Assembly: GCA_016285145.1 (NCBI GenBank)
Contig: JAEEQE010000014.1
Span: 1-60,905, forward strand
Reading direction: 5' to 3'
DNA length: 60,905 bases
DNA from: Bacteroidales bacterium
Lineage (GTDB): Bacteria > Bacteroidota > Bacteroidia > Bacteroidales > WCHB1-69
The notes beneath the pieces were generated by a model, which worked only from the letters and a program-made list of their open reading frames with translations, had not been told where the DNA came from and made no database searches. The translations under genes were made by a program, and so were the position numbers. Each line of letters begins with the position of its first letter. The first letter of the stretch is position 1. Positions 6,944 through 59,491 of the stretch are shown in pieces.

Positions 6944-8635
6944 ATGAAACGACTTTTGCTCTGCCTGTTTTTAGGGTTTTTATCTTATATAACATTCTCT
7001 CAATCCGACCCTTACCAAAGACAAACATTCCCTTACCATGCCACTCCTGAGGAGCAGCGGTTGTTGCCCACATGGTACGAGCATGTGCGCTCCACCACAC
7101 CCCCGCCCGGCCCCGTGACGGCCATTTCGGAGTTCCAACCCATGAGCGGCGTGATGGTAGCCTACACTGACATGTTCGGCGTGCCGGTAAGCCTCTTGCG
7201 CGAAATCTCGCAAATAGCCCAGTTGAAGGTACTCGTTTATCCCGCCTCCGACAGCAACACCGTGAAAGGGCTGCTGACCAGTGGCGGTGTAAACATGGCC
7301 AATGTGGAATACTGGGTCATCAACCACGACAGCTACTGGACCCGCGACTACGGTCCGTGGTTCATCCTCGACGGCAACGACAAGGTCAGCGTAGTGGACT
7401 TTACTTATAACCGCCCCGCGCGCCCGAACGACGATGCCGCCTTGATACAGGTCACCAACAAGATGCAACTCGACCGCTACGAGATGCCCCTGGTGCACAC
7501 CGGCGGCAACTATATGGTGAACGGCTATGGCACTGCCGCCTCCACCAACCTGGTAGAAGAGGAAAACAGAAATCTGTCCGTTTCCGACATTAACACCTTG
7601 TTTAGCAACTATCTTGGTGTTGATGACTACAAACTTTTTCAAGATCCACAAGCGCAATACATCGCGCACATCGACTGCTGGGGCAAGTTTTTAGGCGTGG
7701 ACAAAGTACTCATTGGACAAGTACCCCCCACCTATTGGAATTACTACAGATATGAAAATGTGGCCAGCGCCTTCGCCAATTCGATTTCCCCATGGGGCAC
7801 TCCATACAAAGTGTACCGCGTTTACACGCCAAGCAACAGTGCCGAGGCCACCTCCAAGACCACGCCATACACCAACTCTTTGATTCTAAACGACCACGTG
7901 TTTGTGCCGATTACGGGCTCACAATGGGACAACGATGCCATCGCCACATACGAGCAGGCCATGCCGGGCTATACCATCGTGCCCGTCATGCAAAGCGACA
8001 TGACTCCCTGGCTGAACACCGACGCCCTGCACTGCCGCACGCACGAATTGGCCGATGTGGGAATGCTCTATATCCGCCATTACCCTGTGCTGGGCTCGCA
8101 AAGTGCCAGCAGTCCCATAGAAATCACCACCGAAATAAAAGCCTTGAGTGGACAATCCCTCGTATGCGATTCATTGCTTATCTATTACCGCATCAACAAC
8201 GGGAACTGGCAAAGCACCCGCCTTGATTTGGTCAGCGGCGACCACTTCCGAGGCCAGCTCAATGTGCAACCCGGCGACGAGGTGGACTACTATCTCTTCG
8301 CCAAGGACCAGTCGGGACGACGGGAACGCCATCCCTATATCGGGGCTGCCGACCCGCACCATTTCTCCGTAGAGCCCCTCGGCATACAATCATCCATCGA
8401 TGAAAAAGTCGCCGCCTATCCGAACCCTTGCACCAACTGGCTCGTCATCCAACACGCGCAGGGCAACCTCTCCACGATCCGCGTGACCGACATCTACGGA
8501 CGGATCATCACGGAGGAGGTCTGTCACGGCGACCGGACCTTCCTTAACACTGCTCATTGGACATCCGGCGTGTATATGGTCACCATCACCGACCAGTCAG
8601 AACGTTCTTGCACGAAAAAAATCATCAAAAAATAA
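6944..8635 (+). CDS. secreted peptidylarginine deiminase-like enzyme with T9SS type A sorting domain
   Basis: 563 residues with the layout of the Porphyromonas gingivalis peptidylarginine deiminase (PPAD): signal peptide (about 1-19), deiminase domain, Ig-like domain (about 385-485) and type A sorting domain (490-563, Y-P-N-P to K-K-I-I-K-K). Catalytic residues of the guanidine-modifying fold can be placed: Asp135 in W-T-R-D-Y-G-P-W, His242 and Asp244 in A-H-I-D-C-W, and Cys364 in L-H-C-R-T-H-E. Their spacing is close to that of PPAD. Arg157 and Arg160 in Y-N-R-P-A-R lie where PPAD has the arginines that bind the substrate's C-terminal carboxylate. It probably converts arginine (peptide-bound or agmatine-like) to citrulline with release of ammonia. 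A secreted agmatine deiminase is the alternative. It has its own promoter. Confidence 0.88.
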   Translation: MKRLLLCLFLGFLSYITFSQSDPYQRQTFPYHATPEEQRLLPTWYEHVRSTTPPPGPVTAISEFQPMSGVMVAYTDMFGVPVSLLREISQIAQLKVLVYPASDSNTVKGLLTSGGVNMANVEYWVINHDSYWTRDYGPWFILDGNDKVSVVDFTYNRPARPNDDAALIQVTNKMQLDRYEMPLVHTGGNYMVNGYGTAASTNLVEEENRNLSVSDINTLFSNYLGVDDYKLFQDPQAQYIAHIDCWGKFLGVDKVLIGQVPPTYWNYYRYENVASAFANSISPWGTPYKVYRVYTPSNSAEATSKTTPYTNSLILNDHVFVPITGSQWDNDAIATYEQAMPGYTIVPVMQSDMTPWLNTDALHCRTHELADVGMLYIRHYPVLGSQSASSPIEITTEIKALSGQSLVCDSLLIYYRINNGNWQSTRLDLVSGDHFRGQLNVQPGDEVDYYLFAKDQSGRRERHPYIGAADPHHFSVEPLGIQSSIDEKVAAYPNPCTNWLVIQHAQGNLSTIRVTDIYGRIITEEVCHGDRTFLNTAHWTSGVYMVTITDQSERSCTKKIIKK

Positions 8636-31970: not shown

Positions 31971-32345
31971 ATGGAAGATTTTATAAGCATATTGATTCTG
32001 ATTCTCCTCGGGTTAGCACCCACGATTATCAAACTAGTCAAAGGGGAAAAACCTACGACGCCAAAATCGATTCCCATCCTGGAAGAGGAGGATGAAGCGG
32101 AGGTGCTTTTTGAAACACCGGAAATGCAAAAAAACGAGCCGAATTTGCGAAATCAAACCGAATACTTCACATACGAAACGCTGACGGATTCGGAGGACAT
32201 TGTCGACAAAGTATCCGATTCAAAGCGGGAAGAATCATTACAACCATCTGATAATAAGACAGAAAACATTCCAGGGTTAACTCTGGATGGCGAAGAAATC
32301 TACAAAGGCATCATTTATGCTGAAATTCTAAAAAGGAAATACTAA
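31971..32345 (+). CDS. small acidic membrane-anchored protein, unknown
   Basis: 124 residues. One hydrophobic helix near the N-terminus (about 4-22) is followed by an acidic, Ser/Thr-rich tail that looks unstructured. The C-terminus (G-I-I-Y-A-E-I-L-K-R-K-Y) is a short amphipathic helix. This design recurs as the last gene in Bacteroidetes operons, but I cannot place it in a family. It lies 20 bases after yihY and is likely co-transcribed. Confidence 0.65.
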   Translation: MEDFISILILILLGLAPTIIKLVKGEKPTTPKSIPILEEEDEAEVLFETPEMQKNEPNLRNQTEYFTYETLTDSEDIVDKVSDSKREESLQPSDNKTENIPGLTLDGEEIYKGIIYAEILKRKY

Positions 32346-32469: not shown

Positions 32470-35400
32470 ATGGCTATGATTAAAAAATTACTCTCTACTC
32501 TCGGAGTGATCATTCTTTTCACAAGCATGGCATTTTCACAGTCCCAAATCAAGGGTAAAGTGTTAGACCAGGCGGGAGAGCCTTTGGGGTACACCAGGGT
32601 TTTCCTGAAGATTGGCGACAAGGTTGTGAACATGGGCATGGCGGATGACAAAGGTGAATACTCCATGTTCGGTGTGGAAGTCGGCACCTACGATCTGACC
32701 GCCGACGCTCAGATGACCTGTAAGAAGTCGCAAACCAAGACGGGCATCAAGGTGGGTTCCAACCAGGTGATGTTCATTGACTTCACCATTGACTGTACGA
32801 CTGAAGTGCAGGAGGTTATCATCAAGTACGAACCGCCTGTGTTTGACCCGGATAACACCAGTTCCACGAGCCGTATCAGCGGTGACAATGTGCGTACCAC
32901 GCCTGGCCGTTCCGTAACCAGCGCTTTAGCCAACCTGGAGGGTGTGTCAAGTGTGGATGGTGCCATGACATCAGTGCGTGGTAACCGTGCCGAAGGCCAG
33001 CAGACCATCATCGACGGTGTGCGTGTGCGTGGTAACGGTAGCGTATCCATGGCATCCATCGAGGAGGCCCAGTTGATTCAGGGTGGTATCCCAGCCGAGT
33101 ATGGTGACGGTACCTCCTTCACGGTCATCACCACCAAATCCGCCCCGAAGGACTTCCACGGATCTGTGGAGTTAAGAGGATCCATCGACGGATACAACAA
33201 CTTCCTCGGTGCTGTATCCATCTCCGGTCCGCTGTTGAAGGGCAAGAATAAAAACGACCCCACCCGTATCGGATTCCTCTTCAGCGGAGAAGTTTCCTAT
33301 GACAATGACACCCGTCCGTTAAGAGGCGGCTATTGGGTGGCCAACGACGATGTGATTGAGGATATCAGCATGAATCCTCTCCGTTACAACCCGACCAGTT
33401 TCGGTGCCTGGTATCAGGAGGCCTGCTACCTTACCAGCGAATCGTTCCATAAGGAGCGTGTGAAGAAAAACGCCGGCAGCTGGGACTATCTCGGCCAGCT
33501 GAAGTTCGACTTCACCCTCGGCAAGAAGCATAACATGCGTCTCTCCCTCGGTGGATCCTACGAGTACATCAAGGGAAAATCCTGGGGGCCCTCCGCCGCC
33601 ATGTTCAAAATCGAGACCCCGACCACCATCAACAACACCTTGCGTATGAATGCCCGTTTGAACCATCGTGTGTTCACCGACACCACGGGTAAGGCCACGT
33701 TGAAGAACATCATGTACGACATCAACGTCAACTACACACTCTTCAACTCCAACTCATACGCCACTCAGCATAAAGACAGACTGTTCGAATACGGCTATAT
33801 CGGCAAATTCAGCACCCAACGGGTGAAAGGTTATTCCGAATACAAGGATGAACTGCAGGTTTCCGAAGAGGGCAACCCCAACATAATTTCGGGTGCCAGA
33901 GAGTTTGAAGGCTGGTACGACTCACTCGTGACCTTCAAAATCAATCCGGAATTCAATTGCAATCCTCTTCTCGCCCGTTACACGTTGAGCTTCCTTGAGA
34001 ACTACCCTCTGGAAGAGCTCTACACCTATCTTGGCGAGGGATACCCCATCGACCTGAACCTCTACCAGCAATTTGGTGCGCTCCGTAACGGCGACGGTCC
34101 CGACGGTATCTACGGTATGTACAGCAGCCCCGGTGCGGTTTCCGGCCAATACAGCAAGGGCCAGACCGAGCAGTTCGGCGTGAAGGCCAGCATCTCCATG
34201 AACCTGAAGAACCACGAGCTCAAATTCGGTTATGACTTTGAAAAATTGACCTATCGCGGATACGGAATCGCATCCTTCTCCCTGTGGCAGTTGATGAGAA
34301 CCGAAACGAACAAACACATCTCCGAGTTGGACAAGGAACACCCCATCTACGATGTACGTTATGACCCCGAATTGGGAAGAGACATTATCTATGTGGACTA
34401 TAACCGCTTGAACGTGTTGGAAGACCAGACCGTATTTGACCGCAACCTGCGTACATCCCTCGGTTTGGACCCCAACGGTTCCGACTGGATTGACATCGAT
34501 GATCTGGATCCCACGGCCTTCAACGTCAACATGTTCTCCGCAGAGGAACTGCTTACCGGAACATCCTCCGGTTCGGCCTCCATGGTCACCTACTATGGCT
34601 ATGACTACACAGGCAAAAAATACAACAAGAAGACCTCCATCACAGACTTCTTCGATGCAGTGGACAAGAACGGCCAACGCACCTACAACATTGGTGCATA
34701 CGAGCCCATCTACATGGCTTTCTACCTGCAGGACAAATTCTCCATCAACTCCCTGTTGTTCAACATCGGTTTGCGTGTTGACCGCTTCGATGCCAACCAG
34801 GAAGTGCTGAAAGACCCCTATTTGTTCCGCGAAGCCTATACGGTTAAAGACATCCGTAACCTCAACAACAAGATCTCATTCGCCGGTAACGCCGAGGACA
34901 ACTGGGTGGTTTACTATACCGGCACCGATGTCTATATGAGTGAGGAAGGCATTGCCGGTAGCGAATTCAAGTCCTCCAACATCATTGGTTACCGTAATGG
35001 CGACACTTGGTACAACGCCTCCGGTCAAGAAGTGGTTGACCCCGAATCCGAACTTTCCCTCTACGTGAACGGTCCGCTCCTCAAGAATCCAATCGACAAG
35101 GAAAGAAACACCAAGGTCGAATCCTCCGCTTTCGAGAAATACAAAGCACAGTGGTCTGTCATGCCGCGTATCTCCTTCTCTTTCCCGGTATCTGACAACT
35201 CCCTGTTCTATGCCCACTATAACATCATCACCTCCCGTCCTTCCAACCTGCAGATTTCCCCGGTTGACTATCTGTTCATTTCCAAGCGTAATTCCGCTGG
35301 TGACATTGTCAGCAACCCGAACATGAAACCGCAGCAGAGTATTGACTACGAAATCGGTTTCCGTCAGAAGATCGGAAACAAATCTTCCATCAGCATCAGC

Positions 35401-36270
35401 GCTTACTATTCTGAAAAACGTAACCAGATTCAGGCTTACCGTTTCTCCGGCGCATATCCGAACACCTATTATTCCTATCAGAACATTGACTTCGGTACAG
35501 TGCAAGGCTTCACCTTCGCCTATAAGATGAACAGAACCAAGAACCTCTCCCTTTCCGCCAACTACACATTGCAATACGCCAAGGGTACGGGTTCCAGCTC
35601 AACCGACCAGCTTTCCATCCTTTCCGAAGGACAGCCGAACTTGAGAACGCTCACCCTCCTTGCCTTTGACCAGAGACATAGAATCGGTATCAATTTGGAT
35701 TATCGTTTCGAGAGCGGTACCGAATACAACGGACCTAAGACCGAGAAGACGGTCGTAGTGGACGGCAAACCGACCACGAAGACCATCCAATGGCTGGCCA
35801 ACACGGGATTCTCCCTGTTGTTCTCCGCCGCTTCCGGTACTCCCTACACCCGTTCTGCCACTCCGTATTCCATCACGGGTATTGGTACTCGCCAGGTGTC
35901 CGGTTCCATCAACGGTTCCACCACCCCGTGGCAGTTCCAGTGCGACCTGCGTATCGACAAGACCTTTGTCTTCAATTTGAACAAGAATGCGAAAGACAAA
36001 GACGGCAATGCCAAATCCGCGAAACCCGGTTATCTGACCGTCTATGTTGACATTACGAACCTCTTCAACTTCAAGAACGTTCTTTCTGTTTACGACTACA
36101 CCGGCAACCCGGACGATGATGGCTTCCTCTCCTCTGCGGAATACCAGCAGGTAATCAACTCCCAGATCTATGTTCCTTCCTACATCAACTACTACTCGAT
36201 GACCGTTAAGAGTCCTTACAACTACAGCCGTCCTATCCATGCCAGTTTAGGCTTACAATTCGGTTTTTAA
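32470..36270 (+). CDS. Oar-like TonB-dependent outer-membrane receptor with carboxypeptidase-like N-terminal domain
   Basis: 1266 residues. A signal peptide (about 1-23) is followed by a carboxypeptidase regulatory-like beta domain (about 25-108). Then comes a TonB-box-like E-V-Q-E-V-I-I, and a plug domain (about 130-235) with N-L-E-G-V-S-S-V-D-G and T-I-I-D-G-V-R-V-R-G. The rest is a 22-strand-type barrel ending in Phe, as outer-membrane proteins do. It lacks SusC hallmarks and no SusD gene follows, so it is closer to Oar-type receptors. It should be energised by TonB/ExbBD. It heads a cluster with a giant secreted protein and a PorV-like protein, 27 and 28 bases apart. Confidence 0.88.
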   Translation: MAMIKKLLSTLGVIILFTSMAFSQSQIKGKVLDQAGEPLGYTRVFLKIGDKVVNMGMADDKGEYSMFGVEVGTYDLTADAQMTCKKSQTKTGIKVGSNQVMFIDFTIDCTTEVQEVIIKYEPPVFDPDNTSSTSRISGDNVRTTPGRSVTSALANLEGVSSVDGAMTSVRGNRAEGQQTIIDGVRVRGNGSVSMASIEEAQLIQGGIPAEYGDGTSFTVITTKSAPKDFHGSVELRGSIDGYNNFLGAVSISGPLLKGKNKNDPTRIGFLFSGEVSYDNDTRPLRGGYWVANDDVIEDISMNPLRYNPTSFGAWYQEACYLTSESFHKERVKKNAGSWDYLGQLKFDFTLGKKHNMRLSLGGSYEYIKGKSWGPSAAMFKIETPTTINNTLRMNARLNHRVFTDTTGKATLKNIMYDINVNYTLFNSNSYATQHKDRLFEYGYIGKFSTQRVKGYSEYKDELQVSEEGNPNIISGAREFEGWYDSLVTFKINPEFNCNPLLARYTLSFLENYPLEELYTYLGEGYPIDLNLYQQFGALRNGDGPDGIYGMYSSPGAVSGQYSKGQTEQFGVKASISMNLKNHELKFGYDFEKLTYRGYGIASFSLWQLMRTETNKHISELDKEHPIYDVRYDPELGRDIIYVDYNRLNVLEDQTVFDRNLRTSLGLDPNGSDWIDIDDLDPTAFNVNMFSAEELLTGTSSGSASMVTYYGYDYTGKKYNKKTSITDFFDAVDKNGQRTYNIGAYEPIYMAFYLQDKFSINSLLFNIGLRVDRFDANQEVLKDPYLFREAYTVKDIRNLNNKISFAGNAEDNWVVYYTGTDVYMSEEGIAGSEFKSSNIIGYRNGDTWYNASGQEVVDPESELSLYVNGPLLKNPIDKERNTKVESSAFEKYKAQWSVMPRISFSFPVSDNSLFYAHYNIITSRPSNLQISPVDYLFISKRNSAGDIVSNPNMKPQQSIDYEIGFRQKIGNKSSISISAYYSEKRNQIQAYRFSGAYPNTYYSYQNIDFGTVQGFTFAYKMNRTKNLSLSANYTLQYAKGTGSSSTDQLSILSEGQPNLRTLTLLAFDQRHRIGINLDYRFESGTEYNGPKTEKTVVVDGKPTTKTIQWLANTGFSLLFSAASGTPYTRSATPYSITGIGTRQVSGSINGSTTPWQFQCDLRIDKTFVFNLNKNAKDKDGNAKSAKPGYLTVYVDITNLFNFKNVLSVYDYTGNPDDDGFLSSAEYQQVINSQIYVPSYINYYSMTVKSPYNYSRPIHASLGLQFGF

Positions 36271-36297
36271 CAGTTTGAAATAAAAAAATAGGTATAT

Positions 36298-39200
36298 ATG
36301 AAAAACAACAACAAAATTTTCTGCTTGACACTCCTGATGGTCTGCATGGTCTTCGGCACCGTGCAAGCCGAAAAAGTCAAAGGAGTACATAGACTATCCT
36401 CTCCTAAAGCGGAATCTGCCACATGTCTTCCGGCAAGTAACTCCAACGAGCTATCGGTGAACAACGTGCGTGCGTACATTGAAACCGGCGGTACAATGTG
36501 GTTCAAGGAAGTGGCCGAATATGAAGTGCCTAAAGGTTCCGGCAAGACCTCCATGTTCTCCGCCGCCTTGTGGATTGGCGGACAAGATGCCAACGGTCAG
36601 TTGAAACTGGCTGCCGTCCGTTTCAGACAACGCGGTGACGACTATTGGACCGGTCCTCTGAAGATCGCCGGTGCCGGCACGACCCAAACCGAGTGTATCA
36701 AATTCGACAAACTTTTCAAGATTTCCCGTGCGGAAGTGGACAATCACATCTCCAGCTACAACACGAGCGGTTATGTGACCCCCTCCAGCATTTTGAACTG
36801 GCCCGCTCACGGCGATGAAGGCTATTCCTACTATCTGGCTCCCTTCAAAGACGTGAACGAAAACGGCGTGTACGACCCTGAGGCTGGCGATTACCCCTAC
36901 TACGACATCAACAACGACCTCTGTCCTTGGACAGAAGACAACATCGCCTTGGCCGCCGCCCATAAGCTGCCGAGAACCCCTGAGGATTTGTGGATGGAGT
37001 ACCGGAACTACGGAGGTTCCAGTTCTGGAGAATACCAGTACGACTGGCACAATTCCAACGGTATGATTTACGCTGACCATGTGCTGAAGGGCGATGAGAC
37101 CCTGTTCTGGATCTTCAACGACAATGGTGGTGCCCATACCGAATCACAAGGTAGCCCTATCGGTCTGGAAATCCGTGGCCAGTGCTTCGGATTCTCCACC
37201 AACGACGACCTGAACAACATGACATTCTATTCCTACGAGATCATCAACCGTTCCACCTATACGTTGACCAACACCTTTTTCTCCCAATGGGTTGACCCTG
37301 ACTTGGGTTATGAGAAAGACGACTATGTGGGTTGCGATGTGGCCCGTGGTCTGGGTTACTGCTACAACGGTTCCAACGTGGACGGCAACGGCCAAACCAA
37401 GGCATACGGCGACCAGCCTCCTGCGGTGGGTGTGGACTTCTTCCAAGGTCCCTACATGGATGCTGACAACCGCGACAACCCGAAATTCTATCCGGACAGC
37501 GCATCCGTTGCCGGGTATTGTGAAAAATTCATAGATCCCAAAGTTTACGTGTCCCCATTGGACCAGATGGCCATCAATGGTGTGAACTTCGGGGACAACA
37601 TCATTGACAATGAGCGTTTCGGTATGAGAAGATTCGTGTACCACAACAACGACAACTCCGTGGTAGGTGACCCGGATGTGGCATTCGAATACTACAACAT
37701 GCTGCAAGGTATCTGGAAAGACAACACCAAAATGCGCTACGGCGGCAACGCCCACTACACGGTAGGTGGTAACGGTCCGGAGTGTGATTTCATGTTCCCC
37801 GGCTTGACAGACGTTTGTAACTGGGGTACAAAAGGTGAAGACCCGAAGCCCAACACTTACGGTGCTGGCGGCTGGACAGAAGCCAACGTGGGCAACGCTC
37901 CTGCAGACCGTCGTTTCATGCAGTCTGCTGGTCCCTTCACACTGAAACCGGGTTCTGTGAACTATATCACCGTAGGTATTCCATGGGCACGTGCCTCCCA
38001 AGGTGGCGCACAAGCCTCTGTTGAGTTGCTGAAACTGGCCGACGACAAATGCCAGACCCTGTTCGAAAACTGCTTCAAGACCTTGGACGGCCCGGACGCT
38101 CCGGATTTGACCATCCGCGAACTTGAAAACGAGTTGGTGCTTTACATCTCCAACGAAGACAAGACCAGCAACAACTATCACGAGACCTACTACGAACTGG
38201 ATCCGCAAATCTCCAAAACATTGTCCACTTCCACATTTGAAAAGACTTACGACACCTTATATGTATATGACGCCAACAACAATCCCGACACGGTGATTGT
38301 CTCCAATATCGTCGCTGTCACGCATGAGGACACGCTCTCTACAGAACAACGCCGCTACTACTTTGAAGGATATCAGGTTTATCAGTTGGCAAACTCATCT
38401 GTCAGCGCCACCGAACTGAACGATCCCAGCAAAGCCATCATGATTGCACAATGCGACATCAAGAACAATGCCGGACAGCTTGTGAACTGGATTTACAATG
38501 AAGCCATCGGTACCTCTGTTGCCACTGAAATGGTCAATGGAGCCAACGAAGGCATCTTCCACTCTTTCACCGTCACGGAGGACAAATTCGCCACCGGTAC
38601 TAACAAGGCCCTGGTCAACCACAAAGAATATTACTTTATGGTTGTCGCTTACGGTTACAACCAATACAAGGAGTTCAAACTGGATCCCGACTATATGGAC
38701 GGACAACAGACCCCGTATCTGGCCGGCCGTCGTAACATTAAACTGTACACGGGTATTCCGCACAAATCTTCCGGCACCATCCAAAACAGCGTCTATGGCG
38801 ACCAACCCATGATCACCCGTATCGAAGGTCAGGGCAATGGTGGTTTCTTCCTGGACATGACGGATGAATCACGCCAGAAGGTGCTCGAACTCAACACCTA
38901 CAACAACATCCAATACAAGAACAACTACGGTCCGCTGAACATCAAGGTGGTCGATCCGTTACAGGTGAAACCGTATGACTACACTATCCGCTTGTTGCCC
39001 AACGATGTGGACGAGGATGTAAACGACCAGACCGAATGGCAATTAATCATCAGTGATGAGGTTTCTGACGCCGAGCTGGAGGAACTGGGCATCGAACGTG
39101 TGAACACGGCCGCCATGCCTATTAGCATGACCAATGAAGAGCTCTTCCTCGACCTTGGTATTTCCATCTCCATTATCAACGACAACTTCAAGATCTACCA

Positions 39201-41118
39201 GAAGAATCTTAATGATTATGTGGCAGACAGTTTAGGCTTCAATTACAAATCCCTCACCATGTACGGACAAGTGGACTTCCTGGGTGCTACCATCGATTAT
39301 GGTGAAGGTATGCCTTGGTTGTCGGGTGTTCACGATATAGAAGGTGATTATCCGGCCAACTGGATTCATTCCGGTAGTCAGGAATCCGGAAAATGGCATG
39401 ACTGGGGTATTGGCGAGGAGTATGCAGGCCAGGAAGGTGCAGAGAACAAGTATTTCCAATGGCGTACGGAGGATATGTGCTGCATTATGAAAACAGGAAC
39501 ATTGAACGATCAGGAAACGACCCGCGCGTTCAAAGATCCCGATCAACAGTTCGAAGGCATCCTCGGCGGCTTATGGTCACCCTACGTGCTTTCATCCCCG
39601 TATGACGGCGGTCCGCAGGCCAAGTACATCATTCCGGACAACGTTCCTTACCTTTCTGAAGGTGATGAAGGTCCTTCTCCCATGTACTTTGATTTCCGTT
39701 CACTCTCCGGATCCATGTGGAATCCTGGCTATAACCAGACCATGACCAACCTGTACTCTGTTGACATCGTGCTCACACCGGACAAGAGCCTGTGGACGCG
39801 CGCCCTGGTTCTGGAAGCCGGCTCCAGCCACGAGACGGAATCCTTCCAGGTAAAACAGGATTTCAACGGCCAGACATACACCAACTATCGTCATGAGCCT
39901 AAGACCTGTCCGTCTGTGGACAAGGATGGTAATCCGTATATGGGCAACGATGATGTGGCCAGCAACAACCCGAACGATCCGAACTACATCGGAGCTACTG
40001 GCTACGGCTGGTTCCCGGGCTATGCCATCAACGTGGAGACTGGCGAACGTCTGAATATCATGTTCGCTGAGAATTCCCAGGATCCTTATAACAATGGTAG
40101 CGACATGCTCTTCAACCCGACGAATGTGTACGCTTGGTATCGTAATGCCACCACACAAGAATATCTGTTGGATGAAGACGGTAATCCGGAGGGCATGAAT
40201 CAAAGCACATTCAACATGATTCGCGACAACTACGGTCAATATGCACTGCAATACGGCGAGCCGCAGAACGGTGGTCGTCACTATGTCTATATCTGCGGAA
40301 GCTCCGGCAACACGTGCAGTTTGGTTTACGATGAATTAGTAAACAGAAACAAACGTAATTTCAACGATTCCGACAGAAACATCACCCGTAACGGTCAGCG
40401 CCACGGCGGATACATAACGACCGATGACGGCGGATGGTATGCATGGTACGATTGCGGCGCTTATGATGGCGGCAAATGGCTCGGTCAGAAGTTCAAATCA
40501 TTTGTCAACAAGAAAAACATGGCCGACCCGGCCCGTATGCAGATGAAGATGCAATTGTTCAACAATGTGATGTACACCAGCATTCCTATGCCTTACCTTG
40601 GATTGGAAGATAACTGGCTCTCCTGCGACGCCACCATTAAGATCCGCGTGTCACGTCCCTACTTGAGATACTCCTCCCGCTGGTACAACGACGCAAGTAC
40701 AGCGCCGAACGCAGACCAGAATGACGGTTATCCGATGTACACGTTCACAACCAAGAACCTCGCTCCTGTCAAATCGGAAACGACAGAACAGGTTCAGGAG
40801 GTACTCGACGATATCAACATCGTTCCGAACCCGTACTACGGATTCTCTCAATATGAGCAGACCGCTTTGCAGAACTACGTCCGCATCGTGAACCTCCCAG
40901 AGAAGTGTACCATCTCCATCTATACGGTTAACGGCACACTTATCCGGACTCTCACGAAGGGTAATACGGATTCTTACGTACAATGGGATTTGAAGAACCA
41001 CGCCAACATTCCGATTTCCGGCGGTGTTTACATCATCCACGTGAAAGCCGACGGCTTCGGCGAACGCACATTACGGTTCTTCTGCGCAATGCGCCCAACA
41101 GACTTGAATGGTTTCTAA
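36298..41118 (+). CDS. giant secreted protein (1606 residues) with unusual T9SS-like C-terminus
   Basis: Signal peptide about 1-24. Near residues 55-120 is N-N-V-R-A-Y-I-E-T-G-G-T-M-W-F then F-S-A-A-L-W-I-G-G-Q-D, a segment I recall from large T9SS-linked surface proteins of Bacteroidetes. Asp/Asn/Gly/Tyr-rich beta segments fill the middle, including calcium-loop-like D-x-N-x-N-G-x-Y-D-P-E. The end (about 1500-1606) has I-V-P-N-P-Y-Y, a W-D-L-K-N segment and G-G-V-Y-I-I-H-V-K, like a sorting domain. It then finishes in F-F-C-A-M-R-P-T-D-L-N-G-F instead of the usual basic tail. It is probably exported through T9SS and displayed on the cell surface. The role is unknown: structural layer, adhesin or receptor partner. 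It is co-transcribed with the genes on either side. Confidence 0.8.
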   Translation: MKNNNKIFCLTLLMVCMVFGTVQAEKVKGVHRLSSPKAESATCLPASNSNELSVNNVRAYIETGGTMWFKEVAEYEVPKGSGKTSMFSAALWIGGQDANGQLKLAAVRFRQRGDDYWTGPLKIAGAGTTQTECIKFDKLFKISRAEVDNHISSYNTSGYVTPSSILNWPAHGDEGYSYYLAPFKDVNENGVYDPEAGDYPYYDINNDLCPWTEDNIALAAAHKLPRTPEDLWMEYRNYGGSSSGEYQYDWHNSNGMIYADHVLKGDETLFWIFNDNGGAHTESQGSPIGLEIRGQCFGFSTNDDLNNMTFYSYEIINRSTYTLTNTFFSQWVDPDLGYEKDDYVGCDVARGLGYCYNGSNVDGNGQTKAYGDQPPAVGVDFFQGPYMDADNRDNPKFYPDSASVAGYCEKFIDPKVYVSPLDQMAINGVNFGDNIIDNERFGMRRFVYHNNDNSVVGDPDVAFEYYNMLQGIWKDNTKMRYGGNAHYTVGGNGPECDFMFPGLTDVCNWGTKGEDPKPNTYGAGGWTEANVGNAPADRRFMQSAGPFTLKPGSVNYITVGIPWARASQGGAQASVELLKLADDKCQTLFENCFKTLDGPDAPDLTIRELENELVLYISNEDKTSNNYHETYYELDPQISKTLSTSTFEKTYDTLYVYDANNNPDTVIVSNIVAVTHEDTLSTEQRRYYFEGYQVYQLANSSVSATELNDPSKAIMIAQCDIKNNAGQLVNWIYNEAIGTSVATEMVNGANEGIFHSFTVTEDKFATGTNKALVNHKEYYFMVVAYGYNQYKEFKLDPDYMDGQQTPYLAGRRNIKLYTGIPHKSSGTIQNSVYGDQPMITRIEGQGNGGFFLDMTDESRQKVLELNTYNNIQYKNNYGPLNIKVVDPLQVKPYDYTIRLLPNDVDEDVNDQTEWQLIISDEVSDAELEELGIERVNTAAMPISMTNEELFLDLGISISIINDNFKIYQKNLNDYVADSLGFNYKSLTMYGQVDFLGATIDYGEGMPWLSGVHDIEGDYPANWIHSGSQESGKWHDWGIGEEYAGQEGAENKYFQWRTEDMCCIMKTGTLNDQETTRAFKDPDQQFEGILGGLWSPYVLSSPYDGGPQAKYIIPDNVPYLSEGDEGPSPMYFDFRSLSGSMWNPGYNQTMTNLYSVDIVLTPDKSLWTRALVLEAGSSHETESFQVKQDFNGQTYTNYRHEPKTCPSVDKDGNPYMGNDDVASNNPNDPNYIGATGYGWFPGYAINVETGERLNIMFAENSQDPYNNGSDMLFNPTNVYAWYRNATTQEYLLDEDGNPEGMNQSTFNMIRDNYGQYALQYGEPQNGGRHYVYICGSSGNTCSLVYDELVNRNKRNFNDSDRNITRNGQRHGGYITTDDGGWYAWYDCGAYDGGKWLGQKFKSFVNKKNMADPARMQMKMQLFNNVMYTSIPMPYLGLEDNWLSCDATIKIRVSRPYLRYSSRWYNDASTAPNADQNDGYPMYTFTTKNLAPVKSETTEQVQEVLDDINIVPNPYYGFSQYEQTALQNYVRIVNLPEKCTISIYTVNGTLIRTLTKGNTDSYVQWDLKNHANIPISGGVYIIHVKADGFGERTLRFFCAMRPTDLNGF

Positions 41119-41146
41119 AATTATTAATCTGTAAAAACTCAAGAAT

Positions 41147-42328
41147 ATGAAAAATATATATAAGTCATTAATAATTTGCACATTGATTGCTCTATTATCT
41201 GTCGGTACGTCCTATAACGTACTGGCAGGTAACAGAGACCGTTCCGGTCAGGCTGGTGCATCGCACCTGTTGATAGACCCCTGGGCACGCACCAATGGTA
41301 TGGCGAATGCCGGCGTGGCTGAAATCCGCGGATTGGAGTCTGTCTATTCCAACGTGGCCGGTTTGACGAACGTGAAAAAGACGGATTTCGCGTTCAACCG
41401 CACCCAGTATCTGGTAGGTTCCAACTGCGGCATCAATATCAACGCACTGGCCTTTGCCCAACATCTTGGCAAAGCCCGCGATTTTGGTACGCTCGCCATC
41501 TCCTTCTCATCCATGGGCTTCGGTAACGTACAAATCACTACAGTCAACCAACCGGAAGGCGGCTTGGGAACCTTCTCCCCCTCCCTCTCCGTCATTGGCA
41601 TCCATTATGCCAAATCGTTCAACAACTTCATCAAGGGCGGTGTCTCCCTGAAGATTGTGAACGAACGCATCGCCGACTTGCATGCCACTGGCTTCGCCAT
41701 CGACGCAGGTGTACAGTACATTGCCGGTAAATTTGAGAACTTCAAGATCGGCGTGACCTTGAAGAATATCGGTCTGCCCATGTCCTACAAGGGTGACGGT
41801 ATGTCCTACAGAGGCCGCATCAACAATACAACGGTTGAACAGACCTTGGCCGTCCGTTCCGCCGAATATGAGATGCCCTCTCTGTTGGCTATCGGTATTT
41901 CCTACGACTTCCTGTTCTTTGGCGGCGAATATGCCAACATGACCAAAGCCGAGTTGGAAGAGGAAGGCCTTACCCGCGATGACGCTGCACACCGCATCAC
42001 GCTGGCCGGTACCTTCACCGCCAACTCCTACTCACGCGACATTTTCGCGCTGGGTCTTGAATACGGCTTCATGAACTATTTCATGGTTCGTGCCGGCTAC
42101 GCACTGGAGAATGTCACAAAACGCACGGAAACCGACGAGGAAGGCCAAGAACTCAACACGATTTTGTTCAACAACGACTCATTCTTTGCAGGTCCGTCCG
42201 TTGGTGCCACGGCTGTTATCCCCTTGAAAAAAGGCAACACTGGCGCCCGTATCTACATTGACTATGCCTACAGATTCACCAACAAGTGGAGAGGCAATCA
42301 CGTCATGGGTATCAAAATCAGCTTATAG
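41147..42328 (+). CDS. PorV/PorQ family outer-membrane protein
   Basis: 393 residues. A signal peptide (about 1-27) precedes a FadL-like beta-barrel of the PorV/PorQ (UPF0164) family. The start R-T-N-G-M-A-N-A-G-V-A-E and E-S-V-Y-S-N-V-A-G-L-T are diagnostic: they form the first strands with an N-P/N-V-A-G turn. It ends in hydrophobic-Ser-Leu with aromatic residues nearby. PorV shuttles sorting-domain cargo from the T9SS translocon to the attachment machinery. The immediate link to a receptor and a giant secreted protein suggests a dedicated paralogue. A perfect terminator follows. Confidence 0.85.
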   Translation: MKNIYKSLIICTLIALLSVGTSYNVLAGNRDRSGQAGASHLLIDPWARTNGMANAGVAEIRGLESVYSNVAGLTNVKKTDFAFNRTQYLVGSNCGININALAFAQHLGKARDFGTLAISFSSMGFGNVQITTVNQPEGGLGTFSPSLSVIGIHYAKSFNNFIKGGVSLKIVNERIADLHATGFAIDAGVQYIAGKFENFKIGVTLKNIGLPMSYKGDGMSYRGRINNTTVEQTLAVRSAEYEMPSLLAIGISYDFLFFGGEYANMTKAELEEEGLTRDDAAHRITLAGTFTANSYSRDIFALGLEYGFMNYFMVRAGYALENVTKRTETDEEGQELNTILFNNDSFFAGPSVGATAVIPLKKGNTGARIYIDYAYRFTNKWRGNHVMGIKISL

Positions 42329-42352: not shown

Positions 42353-42387
42353 AAAATAGAAGAGACTATTACGGTCTCTTCTATTTT
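42353..42387. terminator. strong 14-bp terminator hairpin
   Basis: AAAATAGAAGAGAC (42353-42366) pairs perfectly with GTCTCTTCTATTTT (42374-42387), loop of seven. With A and T at the outer ends it can work on both strands. It separates the receptor cluster from greA. Confidence 0.9.
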
Positions 42388-42410: not shown

Positions 42411-42884
42411 ATGGAAGACGTAAAGTATTACACTCAAGAAGGCTTGGATGCATTGAAGCGCGAGCTCAATGAACTGGAAGCAGTGGAACGGCCGAAAATC
42501 TCACAAGCGATAGCCGAAGCCCGCGACAAGGGCGACCTCTCGGAGAACGCCGAATATGATGCCGCAAAGGAAGCCCAGGGACTGCTGGAACTCAAGATTG
42601 CCAACTTGCGCAACCTCATCGCCAAAGCCCGCATTCTGGACGAATCCAAAATCGATATTTCCAAAGTGCTCATCTACTCTATCGTGAAGGTTCGCAATGT
42701 CAAGAACAACGCCACAATGACGTACACCATCGTCCCGGAATCCGAATCCGACCTCAAAGCCGGCAAGATTTCCGTATCAAGCCCGCTGGCCAAAGCACTG
42801 ATCGGCAACACCAAAGGCGACACAGTGACGGTACAGGCCCCTGCCGGCAGCATGGACTTTGAAATTCTGGATGTTTCACGCTAA
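42411..42884 (+). CDS. greA: transcription elongation factor GreA
   Basis: 157 residues. The N-terminal coiled coil carries the acidic tip (A-R-D-K-G-D-L-S-E-N-A-E-Y-D-A-A-K-E), and the C-terminal FKBP-like domain ends with S-P-L-A-K-A-L-I-G and V-T-V-Q-A-P-A-G. It rescues backtracked RNA polymerase. It leads a plus-strand operon with HIT, transketolase N-half, LptF/G, glycosyltransferase and dxs, with all gaps at 20 bases or less. Confidence 0.95.
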   Translation: MEDVKYYTQEGLDALKRELNELEAVERPKISQAIAEARDKGDLSENAEYDAAKEAQGLLELKIANLRNLIAKARILDESKIDISKVLIYSIVKVRNVKNNATMTYTIVPESESDLKAGKISVSSPLAKALIGNTKGDTVTVQAPAGSMDFEILDVSR

Positions 42885-42900
42885 TCCCAAGAACAACATT

Positions 42901-43302
42901 ATGGAAGATACCATTTTCACCAAAATCGTAAAAGGCGAAATCCCCTGCTATAAGATAGCGGAAAACGACAAATTCTTCGCCTTTTTAGACATCTCCCCCA
43001 TTGCCAAAGGACACACATTGGTCATCACAAAACTGCAAAACGACTACATCTTCGACCTGCCGGACGACCTGCTCGGAGAGATGATGGTCTTTGCCAAGAA
43101 GGTGGCTGTCGGCATCCGGGAAGCCATCCCGTGCAACCGCATCGGCGTGGCCGTCATCGGCATTGACGTGCCGCACAACCATATCCATCTGGTTCCCATC
43201 AATGGGGTCGGTGATCTCAACTTCAAGGCCGAACGCGTCAAACTGACACCGGAGGAGTTCAAACAGATTGCCGAAAATATCGCCAAAAAAATCAAATTAT
43301 AA
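42901..43302 (+). CDS. HIT-family nucleotide-binding hydrolase
   Basis: 133 residues from the ATG at 42901; the open frame begins inside greA. The histidine triad H-N-H-I-H-L-V-P near residue 98 is intact, and the N-terminal I-F-T-K-I-V-K-G-E-I-P-C-Y-K is typical of the HINT branch. Such enzymes split purine nucleoside phosphoramidates or dinucleotides. It lies 16 bases after greA. Confidence 0.92.
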   Translation: MEDTIFTKIVKGEIPCYKIAENDKFFAFLDISPIAKGHTLVITKLQNDYIFDLPDDLLGEMMVFAKKVAVGIREAIPCNRIGVAVIGIDVPHNHIHLVPINGVGDLNFKAERVKLTPEEFKQIAENIAKKIKL

Positions 43303-43322: not shown

Positions 43323-44165
43323 ATGGATACAAAAGGATTGCAGGACATAGCTGCTCAAGTACGGAGAGACATCATCCGCATGGTTCACGGTGCCAAGTCG
43401 GGACACCCCGGCGGTTCACTCGGATGCGCCGATTTCCTGACGGCGCTCTTTTTCCAGATCATGGAGATAGATCCTGAGAAGTTCACCAAAGAAGGTACTG
43501 GTGAGGACATGTTCTTTTTATCCAACGGACACATCACGCCGGTGTTGTACAGTGTGATGGCCCGCAGGGGCTTTTTCCCCGTCTCCGAGTTGGCGACCTT
43601 CCGCAAGCTGCACACACGCCTGCAAGGACATCCCACACCCGTGGAGGGACTGCCCGGCATCCGCATCGCATCCGGCTCATTAGGACAAGGTGTCTCGGTG
43701 GCCATCGGTGCTGCGTTAGCGAAGAAAGCCAATCAGGATCCGCATCTGGTCTATGCCCTGACCGGCGACGGCGAGTTGCAGGAAGGACAGATCTGGGAAG
43801 CGCTCATGTTTGCCGGTGCCAAACATGTGGACAACCTCATCGTGACAGTGGACTACAACGGCAAACAGATTGACGGCCCGACGGATCAGGTATGCAACCT
43901 TGGCAAAATCCGCTCCAAATTCGAGGCTTTCAACTGGATGGTGCTGGAGATGGACGGCAACGACATGAAGAAATGCGTGCAGACACTCACATTGGCGAAG
44001 ACCTTGGCCCGCAACCAGAAACCCGTCGCCATCATTATGAAGACGGAAATGGGCAAGGGTGTGGACTTCATGATGGGCACGCACAAATGGCATGGCTCGG
44101 CCCCCAATGACGAGCAGGCTGCCGCCGCACTGGCCCAGCTGCCGGAAACCCTTGGTGATTACTAA
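43323..44165 (+). CDS. transketolase, N-terminal half
   Basis: 280 residues, covering only the thiamine-diphosphate pyrophosphate-binding half: H-G-A-K-S-G-H-P-G-G-S-L-G at the start, G-S-L-G-Q-G-V-S-V-A-I-G-A-A, and the G-D-G-E-L-Q-E-G-Q-I-W-E-A cofactor motif. Split transketolases need a C-terminal partner carrying the PYR domain with the catalytic Glu. No such gene is adjacent: an LptF/G permease gene starts 20 bases later. It belongs to the pentose phosphate pathway if the partner is elsewhere. Confidence 0.9.
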   Translation: MDTKGLQDIAAQVRRDIIRMVHGAKSGHPGGSLGCADFLTALFFQIMEIDPEKFTKEGTGEDMFFLSNGHITPVLYSVMARRGFFPVSELATFRKLHTRLQGHPTPVEGLPGIRIASGSLGQGVSVAIGAALAKKANQDPHLVYALTGDGELQEGQIWEALMFAGAKHVDNLIVTVDYNGKQIDGPTDQVCNLGKIRSKFEAFNWMVLEMDGNDMKKCVQTLTLAKTLARNQKPVAIIMKTEMGKGVDFMMGTHKWHGSAPNDEQAAAALAQLPETLGDY

Positions 44166-58366: not shown

Positions 58367-59491
58367 ATGAGAACGTTTCTAACTCTTTTGTGCTGCTGTT
58401 TGTCCTCCCTGTTGTTAGCCCAGGGATTGGATGTGACGGAGTTCAGCCAGATGCAGGCGTTGCAGGACACCACTGCCTATCCGACGGAGCAGGGTCAGTT
58501 CCAGATTGCCCCCTATCCGGAGATTTCCGAAGTGTATCAGATTCCGGCGTATGACCTGTATGACCGGTATTGGGATGTGGCCCATTTGCGCAGCCGTACG
58601 TTAGAGATTCCGTTTTCGAATGACAGGATCATGCTGATCCTGGTGCAGGCAGCCAACAACCCGTTCTCGTTCCCGTGCTCCTATGACGAGGTGACGCAAC
58701 GTTATGGACAGGTTGGGAAAGCGGGCTTCCACCCGGGCGTGGACCTCAAAGTGGTTCATCAGACGCTGGTGCGCAACTGCTTCGACGGCGTGGTGCGGAT
58801 GGCCAAATATTACAATGTTTACGGCTGGATGGTCGTGGTGCGCCATTACAACGGTCTGGAAACTCTTTATGCCCATCTCGACAAACTGTGCGTGAAACCC
58901 GGCCAACTTTTGCACGCGGGCGATGTGATCGGCCAGGCGGGCAATAGTGGCAACACGAAGGATTGCATCCTCCATTTCGAAACCCGTTTCATGAACGAGT
59001 TCTTCGATCCTAACTTGCTGATTGACTTTGAGAATGAGACCTTGCATAAAAACACCCTCGTGCTGACTCCGGACGATTTCCGCCCGATGAAAGAGGTGGA
59101 AAATTCGTCCGTCACACAAGCACCCTCGCCCGTATCGGAGAAACCCCTCCAAGCCCCAACTCCCAAATCTCAGCCAACGACCAAAACAGAGCCCCAGTCA
59201 ACAGTCAACAGCCAACAGTCAACGGCTAAAACGGAAATTCTCTCCAAGCCAATAGCTAACGGCCAACAGCCAACAGCTAAAACGGAAACTCTCTCTAAGC
59301 CAATAGCCAACAGCCAACAGCCAACGGCCAAAACGGAATCTTCCAATGCAGAATATTATGTGGTGCAAAAGGGCGACAATTTGTACCGCATCTCGGTCAA
59401 GTTCCACACAACAGTAGATAATCTGTTGAAAATAAACAACCTGCCAAACGCTGACAAGATTACGGAAGGTCAGCGGTTACGGGTAAAATAG
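58367..59491 (+). CDS. M23-like peptidase with LysM domain, one catalytic His replaced
   Basis: 374 residues with a signal peptide (about 1-19). The LytM/M23 domain spans about 95-225. Zinc ligands His122 and Asp126 (H-P-G-V-D) and His203 (L-H-F-E) are present, and the Y-A-H-L His170 is kept. The first His of the usual H-x-H is Ile201 (C-I-L-H-F), so hydrolysis may be lost or weakened. Residues about 283-325 are a repeated Gln/Pro/Thr/Lys linker, and a LysM domain (about 328-374) binds glycan. It may activate another wall enzyme, as degenerate LytM proteins do. It starts three bases after rfaE2. Confidence 0.85.
   Translation: MRTFLTLLCCCLSSLLLAQGLDVTEFSQMQALQDTTAYPTEQGQFQIAPYPEISEVYQIPAYDLYDRYWDVAHLRSRTLEIPFSNDRIMLILVQAANNPFSFPCSYDEVTQRYGQVGKAGFHPGVDLKVVHQTLVRNCFDGVVRMAKYYNVYGWMVVVRHYNGLETLYAHLDKLCVKPGQLLHAGDVIGQAGNSGNTKDCILHFETRFMNEFFDPNLLIDFENETLHKNTLVLTPDDFRPMKEVENSSVTQAPSPVSEKPLQAPTPKSQPTTKTEPQSTVNSQQSTAKTEILSKPIANGQQPTAKTETLSKPIANSQQPTAKTESSNAEYYVVQKGDNLYRISVKFHTTVDNLLKINNLPNADKITEGQRLRVK
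59213..59339 (+). repeat. 51-bp in-frame tandem repeat in the LysM linker
   Basis: Units start at 59213, 59264 and 59315, a 51-base period (17 codons) with two full copies and about half of a third. Each encodes Q-Q-x-T-A-K-T-E-x-L-S-K-P-I-A-N-x. Such repeats change copy number easily and would alter the distance between the M23 and LysM domains. Confidence 0.9.

Follow-up and report, generated by a model that had tools for sequence, protein, structure and literature searches.

Three neighboring genes on a 60,905-nucleotide contig of a Bacteroidales bacterium (GTDB lineage Bacteria; Bacteroidota; Bacteroidia; Bacteroidales; WCHB1-69; GenBank assembly GCA_016285145.1, contig JAEEQE010000014.1, positions 1 to 60,905 of the forward strand; this whole stretch is referred to as the window) are a co-inherited unit whose order is kept across the phylum. 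The trio encodes a TonB-dependent receptor (TBDR) of 1266 residues (32470–36270), a giant secreted protein of 1606 residues (36298–41118) and a PorV/PorQ-family outer-membrane barrel of 393 residues, termed PorVL (41147–42328). All three open reading frames lie on the + strand, with gaps of 27 bases between receptor and giant and 28 bases between giant and PorVL, in agreement with the tightly packed cluster reported in a preliminary description of this DNA. The reading favored here, with a probability of roughly 57%, is that the trio is a SusCD-like outer-membrane uptake module of a different build, in which the giant would be tethered by PorVL.

The trio is not a local coincidence, an explanation rejected by the order being kept at loci across both Bacteroidales and Bacteroidota. 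The giant occurs in 85 of 198 genomes of the order, from 66 of 150 genera, and the arrangement TBDR-giant-PorVL-GreA-HIT is found in all 19 of the other trio loci examined in the order; a twentieth stretch was taken as a short paralogue. The last two genes, conserved neighbors of the trio within the order (42411–43302, + strand), are presumed from their sequences to encode GreA and a HIT-family protein. Among 80 named loci, which are the best 80 of 575 relatives and are biased toward near ones, the giant, wherever the contig extends far enough, has the TBDR immediately upstream (78 of 78) and PorVL immediately downstream (78 of 78); greA is present in 77 of the 80 and HIT in 74, with all misses at contig ends except HIT in L143. 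The gene order that the preliminary description proposed to look for in other genomes is thus kept. At the scale of the phylum, a profile of the giant detects it in 183 of 395 genomes (E ≤ 1e-10), or 113 of 171 genera. The trio was counted in 39 of these 183 genomes (20 hand-picked strong loci and 20 weak loci of 19 genomes); five of 24 re-searched genomes (G236, G240, G258, G292 and G593) fall outside this count, and six further genomes were opened separately. Loci from the stronger matches hold the trio in 18 of 20 cases, one of them by tblastn alone (two frames overlap), with L251 and L256 lacking it; loci from weak matches hold it in 16 of 20, with L272, L274 and L285 cut by contig ends and L289 without the trio. 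The profile match at the weak loci covers mostly the C-terminal domain (CTD), so the giant there is recognized largely by its place. A profile built from 20 deep giants aligns with the order profile over 810 columns, from about residue 244 to the end (E = 2.1e-87), leaving the first 240 residues uncovered.

Trees of the receptor, the giant and the barrel agree over 60 trio loci, with distance correlations of 0.957, 0.923 and 0.933 and a highest value of 0.187 in 500 permutations each. Within paralogue-rich genomes (17 loci), the corresponding correlations are 0.947, 0.921 and 0.947, and the highest of 1000 permutations reached 0.726. When loci are typed by their neighbor genes (see below), types II and III, each represented by three loci from different genomes, form clades with support of 1.0 in all three trees, and the type I loci, six in number, belong to groups of 11, 7 and 15 across the three trees. 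The receptor itself matches the CarboxypepD_reg, Plug and TonB-barrel models above Pfam cut-offs, an N-terminal carboxypeptidase-regulatory-like domain followed by plug and barrel, which confirms its initial identification as a TBDR; the label "Oar-like" is presumptive, as the classification here uses Pfam domains alone. A receptor profile returned the trio receptor as the top-scoring piece in 12 of 12 genomes searched, by a wide margin in the source genome (1618 bits, with the runner-up at 57) and by small ones in G318 (94 against 83) and in the multi-trio genome G289 (159 against 147). These results bear on the possibility that PorVL holds the giant as an adhesin or coat protein of the surface, and that the receptor is an unrelated importer sharing the operon for expression only. 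Such a role would suit the large size of the giant and its sorting domain, and the source genome encodes many other large sorting-domain proteins, but it is quite improbable in light of the agreement of the three trees, the duplicated type II and III copies that stay together, the best match of the trio receptor in every genome searched (two by a small margin) and a gene order that holds in distant genomes.

PorVL passes the cut-off of the PorV/PorQ family model NF033709 (123.1 bits against 90), as expected from its earlier description as a PorV/PorQ-like barrel, and the same model matches 20 of 20 PorVL proteins of the order at E ≤ 0.001. It falls below the equivalog cut-offs for PorV (NF033710, 56.1 against 250), PorQ (NF033711, 59.2 against 220) and PorV2 (NF052325, 47 against 325). 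An identity with the PorV, PorQ or PorV2 of the genome was rejected, as all three equivalogs are encoded elsewhere in it (456, 317 and 474 bits, respectively), and PorVL is the fourth PorV-family barrel above the family cut-off in the source genome. In a tree, 68 trio barrels and six barrels from type IV loci (see below) split from 18 other PorV-family proteins with a support of 0.999; these 18, of which eight are true PorV, came from eight genomes of the order, and a nineteenth (L205) yielded no protein and was left out. On the grounds of sequence, PorVL is a subfamily of its own in the PorV/PorQ family. Matches to PorVL (E ≤ 0.001) occur in 35 of 35 genomes of the same genus and in 51 of the 60 genomes searched, the weakest of which show no more than remote PorV-family hits.

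The giant starts with a signal-peptide-like stretch (judged by eye) and ends in a borderline type IX secretion system (T9SS) sorting domain (residues ~1496–1598; 40783–41091, + strand), consistent with its being a giant secreted protein, as originally proposed. No Pfam domain exceeds its cut-off in the giant. The T9SS type A sorting domain model TIGR04183 (cut-off 23) yields 17.9 bits for the whole protein and 22.8 bits, or 23.6 with neighbors, in the genome scan; at E ≤ 0.1 it matches 17 of 20 giants of the order, where Por_Secre_tail matches 10 of 20 and FlgD_ig 8 of 20 (best E values of 1.5e-4 and 3e-3). Among solved folds, the one nearest to the CTD is the PorZ domain, with a clear gap to the next rows; ten control sorting domains were drawn from the 30 best-scoring of 94 in the source genome. 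A wider label of "PorZ/PorU-like" was narrowed to PorZ, as PorU tied with unrelated domains and the PorU profile was non-discriminating. The giant is not PorZ itself: it scores 34.0 bits against a cut-off of 260 with the PorZ model NF052228, aligned at the CTD only, and the true PorZ is encoded elsewhere in the genome (G000:C38, 536 bits). At the other end, the modelled N-terminal part of the giant (aligned residues ~39 to 595; 36412–38082, + strand) matches the super-beta-sandwich of GH15/GH94/GH116 enzymes over the domain, and its nearest solved folds are carbohydrate-active enzymes; the alignments for structure prediction took in 70 of 81 prepared sequences. Searches by sequence found no solved structure for the receptor, the giant or PorVL, the rows at E 0.5–0.9 looking like chance.

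Behind the sorting domain of the giant follows a short tail, PTDLNG of the motif RPxDLNxF (41095–41112, + strand), modelled as a helix with low confidence; the proteins of 29 of the 30 best sorting-domain loci in the source genome end 0–2 residues past the profile, and the thirtieth gave no frame. The tail was rejected as a mark of the whole giant family, and its absence from the deep members makes it a trait of the order's branch. Relatives of the giant also occur apart from the trio. Short paralogues with its core domain, mostly of 600–800 residues (L070 6039–8126 and similar), are listed in at least a dozen genomes of the order, and the source genome has part of a 5577-residue frame with the conserved core domain and a T9SS sorting domain at its end (L264, 11880–19997, − strand).

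The source assembly (2.73 Mb, 71 contigs, 94.8% complete), for which the closest named relatives are mainly rumen or gut metagenome-assembled genomes labelled Bacteroidales, encodes SprA, PorV adjoining PorU, PorQ, PorV2 and PorZ, indicating that a T9SS channel with attachment complex is present. The 94 sorting-domain matches listed for this genome include many other large proteins, and the trio giant ranks 91st among them. Across the phylum sample, SprA is found in 303 of 395 genomes and in 183 of 183 that carry the giant, and the giant is found in 0 of 92 genomes without SprA; the Fisher value of 2e-30 for this association is inflated, as relatedness was ignored. Outside the class, the giant occurs in 175 of 211 SprA-bearing genomes, and in 8 of 92 within the order/class portion. 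In the order sample, SprA is present in 84 of 85 giant-bearing genomes and 103 of 113 others (p = 0.026). As the giant is always with SprA in the phylum sample and many SprA-bearing genomes are without the giant, the giant is tied to the T9SS, but the T9SS does not require the giant. A core role of the trio in the T9SS was rejected, as 103 of the 187 SprA-bearing genomes in the order are without it.

Because the gene order is kept, the trees agree, SprA co-occurs and the CTD is nearest that of PorZ, which is itself held by a PorV-family barrel according to excerpted text of PMC10202324, the evidence argues for the dedicated partnership of PorVL and giant that was suggested at the outset. The accompanying idea, that the receptor acts as an anchor or an energy-driven gate and, with PorVL, provides the giant with an export route of its own, fits the tight operon with a PorV paralogue, but is highly improbable: all giant-bearing genomes in the phylum sample have SprA, so a general export channel exists, and no feature pointing to export by the receptor was found here. 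The partnership could instead be an attachment accessory of the T9SS, a further pair of barrel and uncleaved-CTD protein that modifies or anchors other cargo, with the receptor bringing a cofactor or being incidental. The PorZ-like CTD, the restriction of the giant to SprA-bearing genomes in the phylum sample and the housekeeping genes adjoining the trio in the order are all in keeping with such a role. It is nonetheless unlikely, since more than half of the SprA-bearing genomes of the order do without the trio, the nearest solved folds of the N-terminal part of the giant are carbohydrate-active enzymes, and genomes of other classes have multiple copies, some in sugar-regulated loci.

The gene context of these copies provides the link to glycans. 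Several genomes of other classes hold more than one trio, some in glycan loci, where neighbors were named by Pfam for 20 deep-locus proteins and for the rest by similarity to those or by eye. Type I loci (L276, L290, L291, L292, L299 and L309) have, with variations, the order PPIC isomerase-TBDR-giant-PorVL-CTD protein-LacI-secreted amylase with sorting domain; L302, of the same context, is cut by a contig end. Type II loci (L271, L295 and L300) have CTD protein-TBDR-giant-PorVL-GntR/LacI-GHL10-GHL10 with sorting domain-sodium symporter, and L307 has LacI-CTD protein-TBDR-giant-PorVL-solute-binding protein-ABC permease-GH130. In 10 genomes, 8 of 19 trio loci have a LacI gene no more than 10.5 kb away, compared to 0.51 expected (P = 7e-8, which is optimistic because the genomes were picked once the first glycan loci had been seen, the distance was fixed with the positions already known and weaker barrel matches were left outside the sample). 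Of the other loci in this test, three have GntR/LacI-type regulators and eight have neither; the test omits a LacI gene at 11.3 kb from the barrel of L306, and the LacI genes at L301 are on the opposite strand. No SusD match was found among the 20 deep-locus proteins scanned with Pfam, one of which is a giant. Additionally, inspection by eye of the window and of the 19 other loci of the order recognized no carbohydrate enzyme or sugar regulator adjoining the trio. Together, the glycan-locus relatives and the modelled resemblance of the giant to carbohydrate enzymes in fold point to nutrient uptake rather than an export role for the receptor, and nothing was found in support of the proposed anchor or gate. 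A fuller version of the uptake reading, in which the trio, found by the giant profile in most SprA-bearing genomes outside the class, multiplied there for different glycans and persists in 84 of the 187 genomes of the order that have SprA, is more tentative, at slightly short of even odds.

Two further observations concern these neighborhoods. PPIC-type peptidyl-prolyl isomerases are frequent neighbors of the trio in some classes (L276 and L272 by Pfam; L291, L292, L301, L302, L304, L306 and L309 by similarity) and are possibly dedicated folding helpers. Type IV loci (L294, L296, L297, L303, L305 and L308) combine a receptor and a PorV-family barrel with a 500-residue protein (two tested, neither with a Pfam match). 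In L305, the one tested, there is also an NHL-repeat protein of ~430 residues, and five of the six loci have a distant 700-residue relative of the giant.

Directly behind the trio in the window is a terminator-like hairpin (42353–42387, + strand) recognized by inverted repeat and folding energy. Its 14-bp inverted repeat (loop TATTACG) is perfect, as had been noted, with an energy of −19 kcal/mol, a z-score of −7.1 and 0 of 200 shuffles equally good; the T-run that goes with it is short (ATATTTT), and a general scan of the region found no excess of terminator-like sites (9 against 9.2 in shuffles). The gene ahead of the receptor (31971–32345, + strand) encodes a small protein of uncertain membership in the system, which has a single membrane segment near its N-terminus and a charged tail. 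Similar proteins precede the receptor in 50 of 75 named loci and 13 of 17 loci of the order by a crude screen that admits unrelated small proteins, and on this screen alone it was rejected as a fixed member of the trio. Elsewhere in the window, two other proteins have T9SS sorting domains (1262–2839 and 6944–8635), a probable lone transketolase N-terminal half (43323–44165, judged by eye) precedes an LptG-like gene and a tandem repeat has 2.7 copies of a 51-base unit with an inner period of 7 bases (59199–59338).

Under the favored reading of an uptake module, the giant would cross the outer membrane via the T9SS and be collected by PorVL instead of PorV. PorVL would then keep the uncleaved CTD and so hold the giant on the cell surface, in the manner of PorQ with PorZ, and the carbohydrate-enzyme-like domain may capture a glycan or similar ligand. 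In a three-way complex, the giant could pass this ligand to the adjacent TBDR for import with TonB energy, such that PorVL and the giant would together stand in for the SusD lipoprotein of SusCD. The window copy, though without carbohydrate neighbors, would presumably work likewise, or it may serve surface maintenance rather than feeding. If the uptake reading is correct, the T9SS would build part of a nutrient importer, and two hallmarks of the Bacteroidota that are usually treated apart, the T9SS and TonB-dependent glycan uptake, would become linked. A role would also be gained for this PorV-family paralogue and for a giant family present in close to half of the phylum sample, the window member of which is devoid of above-cut-off Pfam domains, and the idea that a PorV-family barrel can permanently anchor one cognate cargo would become directly testable.

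No description of the trio turned up in the literature (open-licence papers), and its components can be set against several known systems. In the SusCD pair, as in the trio, a TBDR is accompanied by a large partner, and some paralogous trios lie near sugar regulators, secreted glycosidases and sugar transporters. Conversely, the window receptor has the giant beside it instead of a SusD-type lipoprotein, and the SusC/RagA model, presumably part of the NCBIfam library, was not among its matches at E ≤ 1, so the trio is not classed as a SusCD system. The trio partner is a predicted T9SS cargo of ~1000–1750 residues, the third gene encodes a PorV-family barrel, and the trio copies read from the order lie outside the carbohydrate loci typical of SusCD and polysaccharide utilization. 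A published locus comes close: Table 1 of PMC6987092, in excerpt, lists the Rhodothermus marinus xylan locus Rmar_1067-1073 as LacI, two sorting-domain glycosidases, a TBDR, a sorting-domain hypothetical protein and a further hypothetical protein, with Rmar_1072 in a different predicted transcript from 1070-1071 and a SusC/SusD pair further on in the locus. Judged from this published gene order alone, the locus looks like the same trio, unrecognized, and the text of that paper makes no mention of PorV.

Barrels that hold a surface partner are known from other systems. In PorQ-PorZ and PorV-PorU, a PorV-family barrel is paired with a partner that retains its C-terminal sorting domain (PMC10202324, excerpted text), similar to PorVL and a giant with a CTD nearest that of PorZ; the trio proteins are none of these four, all of which are encoded elsewhere in the genome, and the trio adds a TBDR. 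Dedicated PorP/SprF barrels anchor secreted proteins with a type B CTD such as SprB and PG1035 (PMC9143113, in part), whereas PorVL belongs to the PorV/PorQ family (the PorP/SprF model matches 4 of 20 members, best E = 5e-6) and the domain of the giant is of the type A/PorZ kind. BamG of the Bacteroidota β-barrel assembly machinery is a FadL-like barrel that holds a surface partner (PMC12578637, in part), as is proposed for PorVL. It differs in that BamG binds BamA, and one of the scanned trio and type IV barrels matches BamG (E = 7e-5). The nearest label for the trio is a junction of two known kinds of system: TonB-dependent uptake that involves a partner at the surface, and the retention of a single cargo by a barrel of the PorV family.
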